Shown piece by piece: positions 5,523 to 13,464 of a stretch of 45,706 nt of DNA; within the stretch, counting starts at the first letter, position 1; every line of letters begins with the position of its first letter. The translations under genes were made by a program, and so were the position numbers. The DNA is from Alphaproteobacteria bacterium (lineage in GTDB: Bacteria > Pseudomonadota > Alphaproteobacteria > GCA-2746255): the NCBI GenBank assembly GCA_021296325.1, contig JAGWAR010000007.1, positions 1 to 45,706 on the forward strand, in the 5' to 3' direction. The notes beneath the pieces are model-generated. The model did not search any database. It was not told where the DNA came from and was given only the letters and a program-made list of their open reading frames with translations.

Positions 5523-5969
5523 TCAAGCGCCTTCCTGCCCTTGCACCCGAAGCGGGATCTCCTCGAAGGCGTCCCCCGCCCGGTTCAGCCGGTGGGCCGC
5601 GACGCGGGCCACCCGGCCCGCCGCGACGGCGGCGATGACCCAGACATATTCCCGGTCATAGGCCATCGAAAGGTCGATGGCGGAAGGCTCGGCCGGATGG
5701 TCCGGGTGGGAATGGTAGTGGCCGACGATGTCCTCGGGCCCGCCCTCGCATTCCCGCATGACGTCGAAGCGCAATTTCGGGTCGATCTCGAAGCGGTCCT
5801 TGCGCGCCTCTTGTTCGGCGGCGACGTTGCGGCTCGGCACGACGCGGGTAACCTCGATAGCGTCCGCCCCCACCGCCCGGCCGACGAGCAGCCCGCAGGC
5901 TTCATAGGGATAGGCCGCTTCCGCCGCCGCTTCGATGTCGGCCAGGTGATCGGGCTTCAGCCGGATCAC
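5523..5969 (-). CDS. JAMM/Mov34 family metallopeptidase (M67)
   Basis: A 148-residue single-domain protein with the JAMM zinc motif: the upstream Glu in YPYEACGLLVG (about residues 20-30) and GHYHSHPDHPAEPSAID (about 83-99), giving His-x-His, Ser and Asp. Bacterial stand-alone JAMM proteins release sulfur-carrier (ubiquitin-like) proteins from conjugates or precursors, for example in cysteine or cofactor synthesis. No sulfur-carrier or ThiF/E1-like gene is beside it, so the substrate is open. Start is GTG 5969 behind AGGGAG, overlapping the upstream stop (GTGA), so it is coupled to the DUF6476-like gene. Confidence 0.88.
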   Translation of the reverse strand: MIRLKPDHLADIEAAAEAAYPYEACGLLVGRAVGADAIEVTRVVPSRNVAAEQEARKDRFEIDPKLRFDVMRECEGGPEDIVGHYHSHPDHPAEPSAIDLSMAYDREYVWVIAAVAAGRVARVAAHRLNRAGDAFEEIPLRVQGQEGA

Positions 5970-7360: not shown

Positions 7361-7404
7361 AACACTCGCAAGCCAGCGGGCGCAAGCCCAGGAGGATGGA
7401 AGCC

Positions 7405-8286
7405 ATGACCGCACTCGTCGCGCTGAACTTTTCTCCGGAACAGAATCTGAGCCGTTACCTCCAGGAAATCCGGAAGTTTCCGATGCTGGAGCCGGACGAA
7501 GAATTCATGCTCGCCAAACGCTTCGCCGAATACGGCGATTCGGACGCGGCCCATCGTCTGGTGACGAGCCATCTGCGTCTCGTCGCCAAGATCGCCATGG
7601 GCTATCGCGGCTATGGCCTGCCGCTTGCCGACCTGATTTCCGAAGGCAATGTCGGAATCATGCAGGCGGTAAAGCGTTTCGACCCGGACCGCGGGTTCCG
7701 GCTTGCGACCTATGCGATGTGGTGGATCCGCGCCTCGATCCAGGAATACATCCTGCGCTCGTGGTCGCTCGTGAAAATGGGCACGACCGCGGCCCAGAAG
7801 AAACTGTTCTTCAACCTGCGCCGGCTGAAAGGCCAGCTGAAGGCCGTCGACGAAGGCGATCTTTCGCCGGAACTCGTTACGGAAATCGCCGACCGCCTCG
7901 ACGTTCCCGAACACGAAGTCGTCGAGATGAACCGGCGCATGGCCGGGCCGGACCATTCCCTGAACGCTCCCCTGCGGGCCGACAGCGACGGGGAATGGAT
8001 AGACTGGCTGAAAAGCAACGATATCGATCAGGAAACGCGCCTCGCCGAAAACGAGGAACTGACGAACCGCCGCGATTTGCTGCGTTCGGCGATGAAAGGC
8101 CTGAACAAGCGCGAACGCCACATCCTGACGGAACGTCGGCTGCGCGACGAACCGCTGACGCTTGAAGAGCTCAGCAAGGAATACGGCATCTCGCGCGAAC
8201 GGATCCGTCAGATCGAATCAAGGGCTTTCACGAAGCTGCAAAAGGCGATGAAGAACGCCATTATTGAACAGCGGCTTAATCCATAG
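7405..8286 (+). CDS. rpoH: RNA polymerase heat-shock sigma factor RpoH (sigma-32)
   Basis: A 293-residue sigma-70-family factor. Region 2 includes HLRLVAKIAMGYRGYGLPLADLI-type sequence and the promoter-melting stretch FRLATYAMWWIRASIQEYI. The RpoH box QKKLFFNLRRLK, diagnostic of sigma-32, lies near residues 130-141. Region 4 ends with LEELSKEYGISRERIRQIE, the -35-binding helix-turn-helix. Start ATG 7405 is chosen over ATG 7396 because AGGAGG (7390-7395) sits 9 bases from 7405 but touches 7396. The upstream gap carries a promoter and a CIRCE-like operator. It directs transcription of chaperone and protease genes; ftsH in this window is a typical target family. Confidence 0.96.
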   Translation: MTALVALNFSPEQNLSRYLQEIRKFPMLEPDEEFMLAKRFAEYGDSDAAHRLVTSHLRLVAKIAMGYRGYGLPLADLISEGNVGIMQAVKRFDPDRGFRLATYAMWWIRASIQEYILRSWSLVKMGTTAAQKKLFFNLRRLKGQLKAVDEGDLSPELVTEIADRLDVPEHEVVEMNRRMAGPDHSLNAPLRADSDGEWIDWLKSNDIDQETRLAENEELTNRRDLLRSAMKGLNKRERHILTERRLRDEPLTLEELSKEYGISRERIRQIESRAFTKLQKAMKNAIIEQRLNP

Positions 8287-8313: not shown

Positions 8314-8832
8314 TTAGTCCCCCTGCCGTGACATTGCGCCGGCGATTTCTTCACCCCATTCCTCGACAATCTCCTGACGCAGCCTTACCAGATGGGCCTT
8401 GCGCTGCAGGGTGCGCATCTCGACATAGCCCGCGATCAGATGCGGCATGCCGAGATAGATGACCCAGCCGACGGCGGCCGCGCCATAGATGACGAACCAC
8501 GTAAAGGGGTCCGTGAGCATCCCGTAGGCCTTGTCCATCTGCCCCGCCCGGCCGACCACCCACAAATCGATCAGATAGGGCGCCACTCCGACCAGGTTCA
8601 GCGACATCACGCTTTTCCCGGCCGCCTTCGTCGGGTTGCGGTCGACGACGAAGGCGACCCAGGCCGGCAGCAGGCCGACCGTCAGGAGGATGACGGTCGA
8701 AAAGGCGAAGGCCGACGCCATGACAAGGAAAAGCACGCCGAAAATCCACCAAAGGCCAAGTGACATCTTCTCGGCGGGCGGCGGGCGGCGCGTTCGGTGT
8801 CTGGGGATCGGTCGGAGCGGTGGTTTCGCCAT
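8314..8832 (-). CDS. Membrane protein downstream of the pseudokinase
   Basis: A 172-residue protein with a basic proline-rich N-terminus (KPPLRPIPRHRTRRPPP) and about four hydrophobic helices: LWWIFGVLFLVMASAFAF, VILLTVGLLPAWVAFVV, LVGVAPYLIDLWVVG and WFVIYGAAAVGWVIYLGM. A charged helical C-terminus follows (MRTLQRKAHLVRLRQEIVEEWGEEI). No family recognised. It begins eight bases after the pseudokinase stop on the same strand, so the two are very likely co-transcribed and may form one membrane complex. Its stop faces that of rpoH with 27 bases between; GCCGG-cgca-CCGGC there is a weak hairpin without a T tract. Confidence 0.7.
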   Translation of the reverse strand: MAKPPLRPIPRHRTRRPPPAEKMSLGLWWIFGVLFLVMASAFAFSTVILLTVGLLPAWVAFVVDRNPTKAAGKSVMSLNLVGVAPYLIDLWVVGRAGQMDKAYGMLTDPFTWFVIYGAAAVGWVIYLGMPHLIAGYVEMRTLQRKAHLVRLRQEIVEEWGEEIAGAMSRQGD

Positions 8833-8840
8833 GGCGTGCC

Positions 8841-10889
8841 CTAGATGTAACGCGAAAGCATGAGGCTGAAGGAAATCAGCGCGATCAGTATCGAAAAGCG
8901 GATGGCGAACACGTGCCCAAGCACCAGTGACGTCAACGGCAACTCCTTGAGTTTGCGATCAAGCTTTGCCGTCTCCGCCAGCGAACGCGTGTAGCGGTTG
9001 CGGGCTAGCGCGTAGGCGCGGCGGTCGGCGCGGCGGCGCGCCGGGTTGCCGATCAAATTGTACAGGGCGACCAGGCTGCCCTTGCCGATGACCCCTTCGA
9101 CCTGCTGCTCCATTTGCTTGCGGAACGCCTGGTTGTGGTAACTCTCGATGACCGGCGGCAGCAGCCGGTGCAGCCAGCTGGCCAGGCCCGGCAGTTTCGC
9201 CGGGCCATAACGGTCCTGCAGGCTGGCCAGGAGTCCCAGGATGCCAAGCACGCGCTCGGCGGACCCCGTCGGCGAAGCCAGCGAAACGAGAAAAGCGTCG
9301 ATCCGGCCGGGGAAGCGGGCGGCGATGAAGGCGGCAAGGTGGCTGTCGATCGGCTCGACCAGTTTCTGCTGGTCGCTGGTCGCGGCCTCCAGCGCCGGCA
9401 GCAATTCCGAGACGCGCACGCAGTAATGCGGCAGCACGAGCGGGCTCAGGCAGCGCTGGCCCGGCACCAGCTCGTACAGGCAACGGTCCAGCCCGAACCC
9501 AAGCCCGCGGCGGTTGAGGAAATGTTCGATCCGGTGCAGGCGCTGCAGGCGCTTGCGGTTTGCCGCCTCGCGCAGCCCCTGGGCCGTCATCCAGTATTGG
9601 GGCAGATGCAGGCGCACGACGTCGGCAAAATTGTGCCGCACCTCGTCCTCGCCGAAGCCGGCCGCGAGGATGCCGCCGAAACCGTCGATCATGGACGTAA
9701 AACTCTTGTAACGAAGCGGCGCCTTCGGATCGAGCAGGATGGCGACCCGCGCCACCAGACGCTCCGGGGAAAGCGGCGAGCTGCGGGCGTTGTTGATCTC
9801 TTCGGTGATGGCTCGGGCGGTGTCCGGGTTCGTCAGGCTGCGGGCCGCCCAAGCCTCGAACCGGCTTTCCTGAATGGCCCGGAAGGCCTGCTGGGGATGC
9901 TCCAGGAAGGCGCAGGCAAGGGCGCGGGCGGTCGTGTACTGCTCCTTGCGGAAGGTAAAGATATGGGGCGCCACGGCCGGGGCGTTGGCGTGGCCGTGCT
10001 CGCGATGCTCGTCCAGCCAGTGCTCGATCCGGTCCAGCCCCCAGCGATACTCCACGTTGTCGGCAAGCAGCCCCTTCAGCAGTTCCATCATGCGCAACGG
10101 CAGCGCCCGGCTGCCCACGAGATAGGCGTAGGAACCTTTTTGAATCTTGCCCCTCAGGATGGCCTCGTTCCCGATCTCCTGCACCGGCAGCTTGCCGAAC
10201 AGCAGGGTCAGCACCGTCACCCCAAGCGCGTAGATGTCGTCTTCCTGGCTTCCTTGGCCACGGCCCGCCGGATCGGCCATGCCGCTTTCGATCGGCTCGA
10301 ACAGGACCGGCTGGTTATAGGCCGCCGGCGCCGTCACGGCTTCGCCAAGCACGACGCGCTTCTTTTCCTTCTCGTCGGCGTAAAAAAGATTGTCCGGCCG
10401 GATGCCTCGATGGGTAAGCTCGCGCACTTCAAGCCCGCGCAACGCCTCGACCAGCGACGCGACGACCACCGTGCTGATCTCCTGCGGCATCATCGGCGCG
10501 ATCGCCGTGTCGAGCGAAGGCATGAGCCGGGGGCCGGGCCGGCCGCAAACGATGACCGGGCATTCGTTCTTGGCGGAGGGCCAGGCAAGGCCGCCCTCGT
10601 CGACGAAGCTCAGGATGCCGCGGATGTTCTGTTGACGCTGATGTTCGAGGAATTGCCAGCGCAACGGCAGGGACGATTCGCAGACATAGGCCAGAAGGCG
10701 GCGATCCTTGCGCAGCGTGTCCTCAGCCAGATAGGCCGCCGCCGTGGGCGAGTCGTAATCGGGCAACCGCGCATCCTGCTGGATCCGGTACCGTCCTTTT
10801 AGCAAAAAACCACCCGCGGCTGGCGCCTTGGCCTCGGGCCATGAGGTCTCCGGCGCCTCCGCAGCAGCTGGCTTCTCGACCGCCGCCAT
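8841..10889 (-). CDS. Membrane-anchored Ser/Thr kinase-fold protein, probable pseudokinase
   Basis: A 682-residue protein. Residues about 28-300 follow the protein-kinase fold: GRYRIQ at the start of the N-lobe, LTHRGIRPDNLFY in place of the catalytic loop, and DIYALGVTVLTLLFGKLP for the conserved helix F region. Key residues are changed. The VAIK Lys position reads LLAYV, HRD reads HRG, and the DFG position reads LGEAV. Catalysis is therefore unlikely, so it is probably an ATP-binding or purely scaffolding pseudokinase. Residues about 310-640 are an uncharacterised mostly helical region, and about 655-680 (IRFSILIALISFSLML) form a C-terminal membrane helix. Start ATG 10889 follows GGGGAAGAG. 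It forms an operon with the membrane protein at 8314-8832. Confidence 0.8.
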   Translation of the reverse strand: MAAVEKPAAAEAPETSWPEAKAPAAGGFLLKGRYRIQQDARLPDYDSPTAAAYLAEDTLRKDRRLLAYVCESSLPLRWQFLEHQRQQNIRGILSFVDEGGLAWPSAKNECPVIVCGRPGPRLMPSLDTAIAPMMPQEISTVVVASLVEALRGLEVRELTHRGIRPDNLFYADEKEKKRVVLGEAVTAPAAYNQPVLFEPIESGMADPAGRGQGSQEDDIYALGVTVLTLLFGKLPVQEIGNEAILRGKIQKGSYAYLVGSRALPLRMMELLKGLLADNVEYRWGLDRIEHWLDEHREHGHANAPAVAPHIFTFRKEQYTTARALACAFLEHPQQAFRAIQESRFEAWAARSLTNPDTARAITEEINNARSSPLSPERLVARVAILLDPKAPLRYKSFTSMIDGFGGILAAGFGEDEVRHNFADVVRLHLPQYWMTAQGLREAANRKRLQRLHRIEHFLNRRGLGFGLDRCLYELVPGQRCLSPLVLPHYCVRVSELLPALEAATSDQQKLVEPIDSHLAAFIAARFPGRIDAFLVSLASPTGSAERVLGILGLLASLQDRYGPAKLPGLASWLHRLLPPVIESYHNQAFRKQMEQQVEGVIGKGSLVALYNLIGNPARRRADRRAYALARNRYTRSLAETAKLDRKLKELPLTSLVLGHVFAIRFSILIALISFSLMLSRYI

Positions 10890-10947: not shown

Positions 10948-10963
10948 AAAGCGTTAACGCTTT
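10948..10963. promoter_or_regulatory. 16-base perfect palindrome between purA and the pseudokinase gene
   Basis: AAAGCGTTAACGCTTT is a perfect palindrome in an AT-rich 120-base gap. It lies 59 bases before the pseudokinase start and 47 bases after the purA stop, both on the minus strand. On that strand it is followed by CTTTTCTTT, so it may act as a weak intrinsic terminator for purA. The symmetry also fits a dimeric repressor operator for the kinase gene. Sequence alone does not decide between the two. Confidence 0.5.

Positions 10964-11009: not shown

Positions 11010-13464
<2,455 letters not shown>

Follow-up and report, generated by a model that had tools for sequence, protein, structure and literature searches.

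We describe a conserved two-gene unit found in a 45,706-nucleotide stretch of alphaproteobacterial DNA (contig JAGWAR010000007.1 of assembly GCA_021296325.1), which at its full length is called the window below. The first gene encodes a protein with a predicted kinase fold, here named PK, and the second, which follows 8 bases after the TAG stop codon of PK, encodes a small membrane protein, here named TM172 (Table 1). An original prediction, made from the letters of the window, had read the pair as a triply degenerate, membrane-anchored pseudokinase and its membrane partner, and the coordinates, the lengths of the 682- and 172-residue open reading frames (ORFs) and the 8-base spacing that it gave are correct. 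Most of what is known about bacterial pseudokinases concerns a small number of named families. PK and its fixed partner occur jointly in 56 of 142 related genomes. As far as our searches show, PK represents a new variety of conserved bacterial membrane pseudokinase with a fixed partner that is unstudied in the literature searched; no publication on the family was found by title or start of abstract, preprints and most subscription papers being outside the scope of that search.

The Pfam Pkinase model matches PK at a sub-threshold level (E = 4.7e-5, 23.3 bits, against a cut-off of 31.7), and neither PK nor TM172 reaches any Pfam or NCBIfam cut-off. A profile of 27 PK rows (the window and 26 others) matches PDB kinases at E = 1.9e-11. 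AlphaFold2, applied to the whole of PK with a 41-row alignment (the window and 40 others), gives a model with a mean predicted local distance difference test score (pLDDT) of 89.7, in which the kinase domain leads into a helical domain, and this into a C-terminal helix of 66 residues with a hydrophobic end. Residues 24–294 of this model superpose on WNK3 over 252 residues (Z 23.9, root-mean-square deviation 2.8), and the model and alignment together show the two lobes of a Hanks-type kinase, which bears out the fold proposed originally. The NCBIfam models LanL and MAD6 each match 40 of the 41 PK members; the scores of the window's PK (37.1 of 650 bits and 28.6 of 460 bits, respectively) cover the kinase part and lie far below the cut-offs, and we rejected both identities and read the matches as general kinase similarity. 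The 50 matches listed from a viral library were all to kinases or unnamed proteins, and PHROGs gave no match to either PK or TM172.

In the window, Val69 occupies the position of the VAIK lysine, Gly162 that of the HRD aspartate and Glu183 that of the DFG aspartate. A pseudokinase being defined by replacement of at least one of these residues, the sequence would place PK among the pseudokinases. Residue frequencies were counted in 127 family rows, related species included, of which 125 have letters at the named positions. The β3 lysine position is V, I, L or A in 124 of 125 rows (V, I or L in 122), lysine being found in a single divergent copy (L123), and aspartate at the HRD position occurs in one row only (L087, from Skermanella aerolata). 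The position of the catalytic-loop lysine is arginine (Arg164) in 116 rows, the metal-binding asparagine (Asn167) is retained in 123, and Arg77 is found in 122, with Arg210 also among the conserved arginines. Position 183 is Asp in 74 rows, Glu in 41, Pro in 6 and Gln in 4, and is thus acidic in 115. Neither a canonical glycine-rich loop nor a conserved replacement lysine in strand β2 was seen in the 41-row alignment. Of the triple degeneracy claimed earlier, the losses of the β3 lysine and the HRD aspartate stand as family traits. Loss of the DFG aspartate does not, since most homologues keep Asp there; all three residues are strictly replaced in the window, but the third replacement is Asp to Glu.

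A hydrophobic C-terminal segment is present in all 41 aligned PK rows, in keeping with the membrane helix predicted before, and a second stretch passes the same hydropathy threshold in 9 of them; in the window's PK the peak hydropathy window begins at residue 660. In-frame stops ahead of this helix were observed at codon 605 of L050:9989-11968 (Magnetospirillum sp. SS-4) and at codon 600 of L107:4227-6191 (a Rhodospirillales metagenome-assembled genome), and may be real truncations or sequencing errors. TM172 of the window has four hydrophobic segments by a crude hydropathy count. The same count in 35 aligned family members gives three segments in 17, four in 8, two in 7 and five in 3. The first 25 residues of these members hold on average 4.5 Lys+Arg and 0.5 Asp+Glu. 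According to the positive-inside rule for membrane protein topology, basic residues prevail on the cytoplasmic side, and because they prevail at the N-terminus of TM172, this terminus is probably cytoplasmic. W159 and G160 of the EWG motif are invariant in the 35 rows. DUF4396 was dropped as an identity for TM172 (22.4 bits against a Pfam cut-off of 27; one of the 35 members matched at E <= 1).

PK homologues, at about 25–63% identity, are present in 56 of 142 genomes (counting that of the window), far more than chance would give. The TM172 profile matches 58 of the 142, namely all 56 with PK and 2 of the 86 others (G035, 84% complete, and G049, 75% complete). In 54 of the 56, TM172 comes after PK on the same strand, no more than 1.5 kb away, and in the remaining two (G114 and G034) the PK and TM172 matches are on different contigs. 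Conservation of the gene pair, which the original prediction had put forward as a test, is therefore what the genomes display. In a sample of 398 genomes of the phylum, near full-length PK (E < 1e-70) was found in 16, each belonging to the same class, and the TM172 profile matched 15 of these and 0 of the 382 others; the sixteenth (G472) has a divergent TM172-like membrane ORF of 166 residues right after PK, with a 4-base overlap. Eight genomes, two of them positive controls, were searched for displaced copies, and TM172 was present in all 8. The six of them without TM172 next to PK, whose record titles name Magnetospirillum, Paramagnetospirillum, Phaeospirillum and uncultured Rhodospirillaceae, thus carry it elsewhere; by eye, the displaced gene stands beside rpoH at L161 and L162 and away from it at L163 and L164. 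A tandem PK-TM172-PK-TM172 array is found in genome G135 (L116:7726-12829). The occurrence of PK with a conserved small membrane protein across many alphaproteobacteria points to an unstudied two-protein membrane machine.

The pair also has a preferred genomic site. On its own strand PK is preceded by purA, hisZ and serA, and rpoH and rluD converge from the opposite side, gene names that we presume from their Pfam families. Among the window and the named loci, 62 of the 68 that could be tested have purA on the strand of PK and no more than 2.5 kb upstream of it, the interval sometimes having room for another gene, and rpoH is convergent within 3 kb in 34 of 65. An annotated locus of Azospirillum thermophilum has the order purA-PK-TM172-rpoH, with TM172 labelled "hypothetical protein". 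At least two RefSeq-style entries, including that of A. thermophilum, label PK as "serine/threonine protein kinase", an annotation that is probably misleading.

Table 1. Features of the PK-TM172 locus and its neighbours in the window.
Feature	Position	Strand	Basis
PK, pseudokinase gene, 682 aa	8841..10889	minus	ORF, homologues, AlphaFold2 model; stop TAG at 8841-8843
Kinase-fold domain, PK residues 25-296	10002..10817	minus	AlphaFold2 model, WNK3 alignment, Pfam
Val69 at VAIK-Lys position of PK	10683..10685	minus	Family alignment
Catalytic loop HRGIRPDN, PK residues 160-167; without HRD Asp, retaining Arg164 and Asn167	10389..10412	minus	Alignment
DFG-equivalent LGEAV with Glu183, PK residues 181-185	10335..10349	minus	Alignment
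Helical domain, PK residues 297-615	9045..10001	minus	AlphaFold2, profile alignments
Long C-terminal helix ending in membrane segment, PK residues 616-682	8844..9044	minus	AlphaFold2, hydropathy
TM172, membrane partner of 172 aa with basic N-terminus	8314..8832	minus	ORF, alignment, hydropathy
EWG motif in hydrophilic C-terminal stretch of TM172	8353..8361	minus	Alignment
purA, usual upstream neighbour	11010..12302	minus	Pfam families, locus comparison
rpoH, convergent neighbour	7396..8286	plus	Pfam families, locus comparison

A 2025 review of bacterial pseudokinases recognizes 42 families; ActPs1-3, DLHK and GLW consist of pseudokinases throughout, CP1 and DYD are mixed, and the ActPs families are described as actinobacterial (PMC12599244). 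GLW pseudokinases are similar to PK in occurring in Proteobacteria and in having a membrane segment past the kinase domain, but they carry GLW in place of HRD and a poly-leucine β3 motif (PMC12599244), whereas the PK family has mostly F/Y-A-L-V-C at β3 and HR[A/S/G] at HRD, with His160 in 39 and Arg161 in 36 of the 41 aligned rows. DLHK pseudokinases share with PK the loss of the β3 lysine and are its opposite in other respects, in that they keep the HRD aspartate, have a degraded DFG, are often linked to helicase parts and have no membrane segments (PMC12599244); the single HRD aspartate among the 125 PK rows and the C-terminal hydrophobic segment in all 41 set PK apart. The motifs of PK match neither GLW nor DLHK as the review describes them, and PK may be among the 42 families under another name.

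The helical domain relates PK to a wider range of kinases. It has no Pfam match in the window's PK, and modelled alone (residues 298–645) it reaches a pLDDT of 93.2, with nothing in the PDB at E <= 0.001 (best E 1.8) and a best VIA Z of 4.6; the missing PDB match does not prove a new fold. A profile of the domain aligns with four intact-type kinases (172 columns, probability 86, E = 5e-6) and with five proteins of DLHK type (121 columns, probability 73, E = 3e-5), in both cases from the end of the kinase domain onward, the reversed controls of both alignments giving a probability of 0.1. The DLHK examples (L145, L146, L171-L173) were assigned in this analysis by their motifs and helicase part. 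The first half of the middle domain is therefore an accessory region that a larger group of bacterial kinases shares; in terms of sequence, the N-terminal part of the domain is common to these kinases and not private to the PK family. The earlier suggestion that the middle domain may be a new family holds insofar as no Pfam or PDB match was found, and fails insofar as it implied a domain peculiar to PK. The AlphaFold2 secondary structure suggests two like units, but internal repeats were rejected: a profile comparison of four segments shows no sequence repeat, and segments 3 and 4 give a probability of 33 while covering just 8 columns of mutual overlap.

Among the intact-looking relatives, those at L142-L144, which come from other proteobacteria, and WP_084095648.1, a kinase encoded on a plasmid of Aristaeella lactis, resemble PK in having a kinase domain followed by the alignable helical region, which no Pfam model covers in L142-L144 either. 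They differ from PK in that HRD and DFG are present in L142-L144, HKD in the Aristaeella kinase, and in that the genomes of L142-L144 have no TM172 match. Such relatives with intact-looking motifs form a less common group that lies outside the class (3 of the 398 genomes), near full-length PK having been found in the class only. The kinase at L142 stands, by eye, in a cluster with genes for an AAA ATPase, a radical enzyme, FHA and PP2C proteins and two SUMF1-like proteins, and an annotated cluster on the Aristaeella plasmid (L170) resembles it. With no matching Pfam model, the helical domain of PK ties the family both to intact-looking kinases and to DLHK-type pseudokinases.

The gene pairing, the membrane tail and the frequent absence of other kinases, considered below, fit a reading in which PK and TM172 form a complex at the inner membrane that serves as a non-catalytic scaffold or sensor and probably binds a ligand; we hold this reading to be moderately probable. 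PK would lie in the cytoplasm, fixed to the membrane by one tail anchor at its C-terminus. Its kinase-fold domain would have lost phosphotransfer and kept the Asn-Asp/Glu metal-ligand pair along with several conserved arginines, presumably at the pocket, and the helical domain and then the long helix would link the fold to the membrane. The pocket would bind nucleotide or some other anionic ligand; a retained anionic or metal-bound ligand is suggested because Asn167, the acid at position 183, Arg77 and Arg164 persist. The resulting state would be relayed via the helical domain and the membrane helix to TM172, which would cross the membrane several times and has a basic N-terminus, probably on the cytoplasmic side, and an EWG stretch towards its C-terminus. 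What the analysis itself shows is the predicted fold, the conserved residues, the hydrophobic tail and the pairing and co-occurrence of the genes; the scaffold role and the physical partnership that had been proposed are inferred, as are the topology, the ligand, the loss of catalysis and the direction of signalling.

Several observations weigh against a ligand-binding PK-TM172 complex. The acid at position 183 gives way to Pro or Gln in 10 of 125 rows. Nine of these (L112, L113, L114, L115, L120, L122, L124, L128 and L131; the tenth is L023) belong to 20 loci picked as extra, divergent or weaker-scoring PK copies; because L114 sits between purA and rpoH, the acid is not universal even at the usual site. 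The topology of TM172 rests on hydropathy, which gives anything from 2 to 5 segments. Two of the 16 PK genomes of the phylum sample (G482 and G419) have their TM172 match on another contig, and four extra PK copies (one in G137, two in G130 and one in G099) have no profile-detected TM172 alongside, although by eye L112 and L115 adjoin a small membrane ORF and L119 and L121 do not. Conversely, G017 has four TM172-family copies against one PK match; three of the copies (L153, L154 and L155) lie away from its PK, and no PK-profile match was found among the ORFs examined at L153 and L154. The pairing could also reflect shared dosage. In favour of the complex, PK and TM172 pairwise distances correlate over 61 loci with PK, TM172 and purA (mirror-tree rho 0.564; partial rho 0.465 with purA distance removed, 0 of 500 permutations being as high), but this correlation is inflated by relatedness and deserves little weight beside the co-occurrence.

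The Pro and Gln residues at 183, together with the missing β3 lysine and the absence of a recognizable canonical glycine-rich loop, would be expected if PK were a scaffold of structural use only, its pocket dead and empty and the asparagine and the acid kept for folding alone. EssB/YukC, which like PK is a transmembrane pseudokinase and which has a scaffold role among membrane proteins, is a precedent (PMC12599244). EssB/YukC is a component of the type VIIb secretion system of Firmicutes, whereas PK has the helical domain and stops at the membrane. Both in the window and at the annotated Azospirillum locus, PK stands among metabolic genes and rpoH/rluD, not in a type VIIb secretion locus. The persistence of Asn167, the acid at 183, Arg77 and Arg164 in 123, 115, 122 and 116 of the 125 rows would exceed what the fold can be expected to need, and we regard the empty-pocket explanation as unlikely, if the strongest of the rivals. 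The same residues, with Arg210, could instead belong to an atypical enzyme that transfers phosphate or adenosine monophosphate (AMP) without the HRD aspartate, as SelO and SidJ might suggest, and pseudokinases with other chemistry are indeed precedents (PMC12599244). Yet SelO and SidJ keep the VAIK lysine according to Table 1 of the review (PMC12599244), where PK has V, I or L in 122 of 125 rows, and strand β2 offers no conserved substitute, so that PK departs from SelO-like AMP transferases and catalysis of this sort seems quite improbable.

A pseudokinase joined to a membrane segment also recalls MviN, whose pseudokinase domain (ActPs3) belongs to a membrane protein and which works through PknB and FhaA (PMC12599244). 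PK might by analogy regulate canonical Ser/Thr kinases or be phosphorylated by them, in the way MviN engages FhaA after phosphorylation by PknB. The window's genome (1.63 Mb in 39 contigs, 91.66% complete), however, yields PK as its sole Pkinase match at E <= 0.001 and nothing for FHA or PP2C_2 at that threshold. More broadly, in 27 of the 56 genomes with PK the Pkinase model matches nothing beyond PK itself (15 have no match at all, 12 have PK copies only), and the remaining 29 have at least one further match, counts that are limited by missing parts of incomplete genomes and by divergent kinases. Because so many genomes, the window's included, are without another match, control of a partner Hanks kinase is very improbable, and the role of a kinase fold in a cell free of Ser/Thr kinases becomes directly testable in laboratory strains.

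Equally hard to credit is a defence or conflict module comparable to the FHA, PP2C, AAA and radical-enzyme clusters in which two intact-type relatives, the L142 and Aristaeella plasmid kinases, are found, even though genes resembling TssA and TssM are found close to one extra PK copy. The usual site downstream of purA in 62 of 68 loci argues against it, and the phage library gave no match at E <= 1e-5. Plasmid matches are confined to five large Azospirillum replicons; two were inspected, and the annotated one has the purA-PK-TM172-rpoH setting. PADLOC matches to PK are weak and fall on the kinase domain, one extending to residue 358. The extra copy in question (G137, L121:8573-16425; neighbours named by eye) is without TM172 alongside.

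Within the favoured reading of PK and TM172 as an inner-membrane complex, a bolder version can be formulated. A kinase fold related to the kinases of phosphorylation-based conflict-type clusters may have been turned into a sensor of metabolites with a housekeeping role, or into a novel type of enzyme, and may gate its multi-span partner in cells without a Ser/Thr phosphorylation system, making the pair a lineage-wide two-protein machine at the inner membrane. We consider this version improbable and offer it as speculation.

Some minor features of the locus and its counterparts were also recorded. The gap between purA and PK contains, at 10948-10963, a perfect palindrome, AAAGCGTTAACGCTTT, followed by a T-rich tail and terminator-like in appearance; the region has 2 sites of this palindrome and T-tail type, where shuffled sequence gives an expectation of 3.0. 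L003 has a related element ahead of PK, the pattern not being found at L004 or L005. Named records with PK include Magnetospirillum, Azospirillum and Thalassospira. Eight further records with a PK locus are titled Candidatus Marinimicrobia (L054, L055, L058, L068, L070, L082, L084 and L103) and have alphaproteobacterial-type neighbours; these titles are probably wrong. Beyond rluD, at positions 5523-5969 of the window, lies a gene for a Prok-JAB (MPN) protein, which recurs at this place in many of the named loci.

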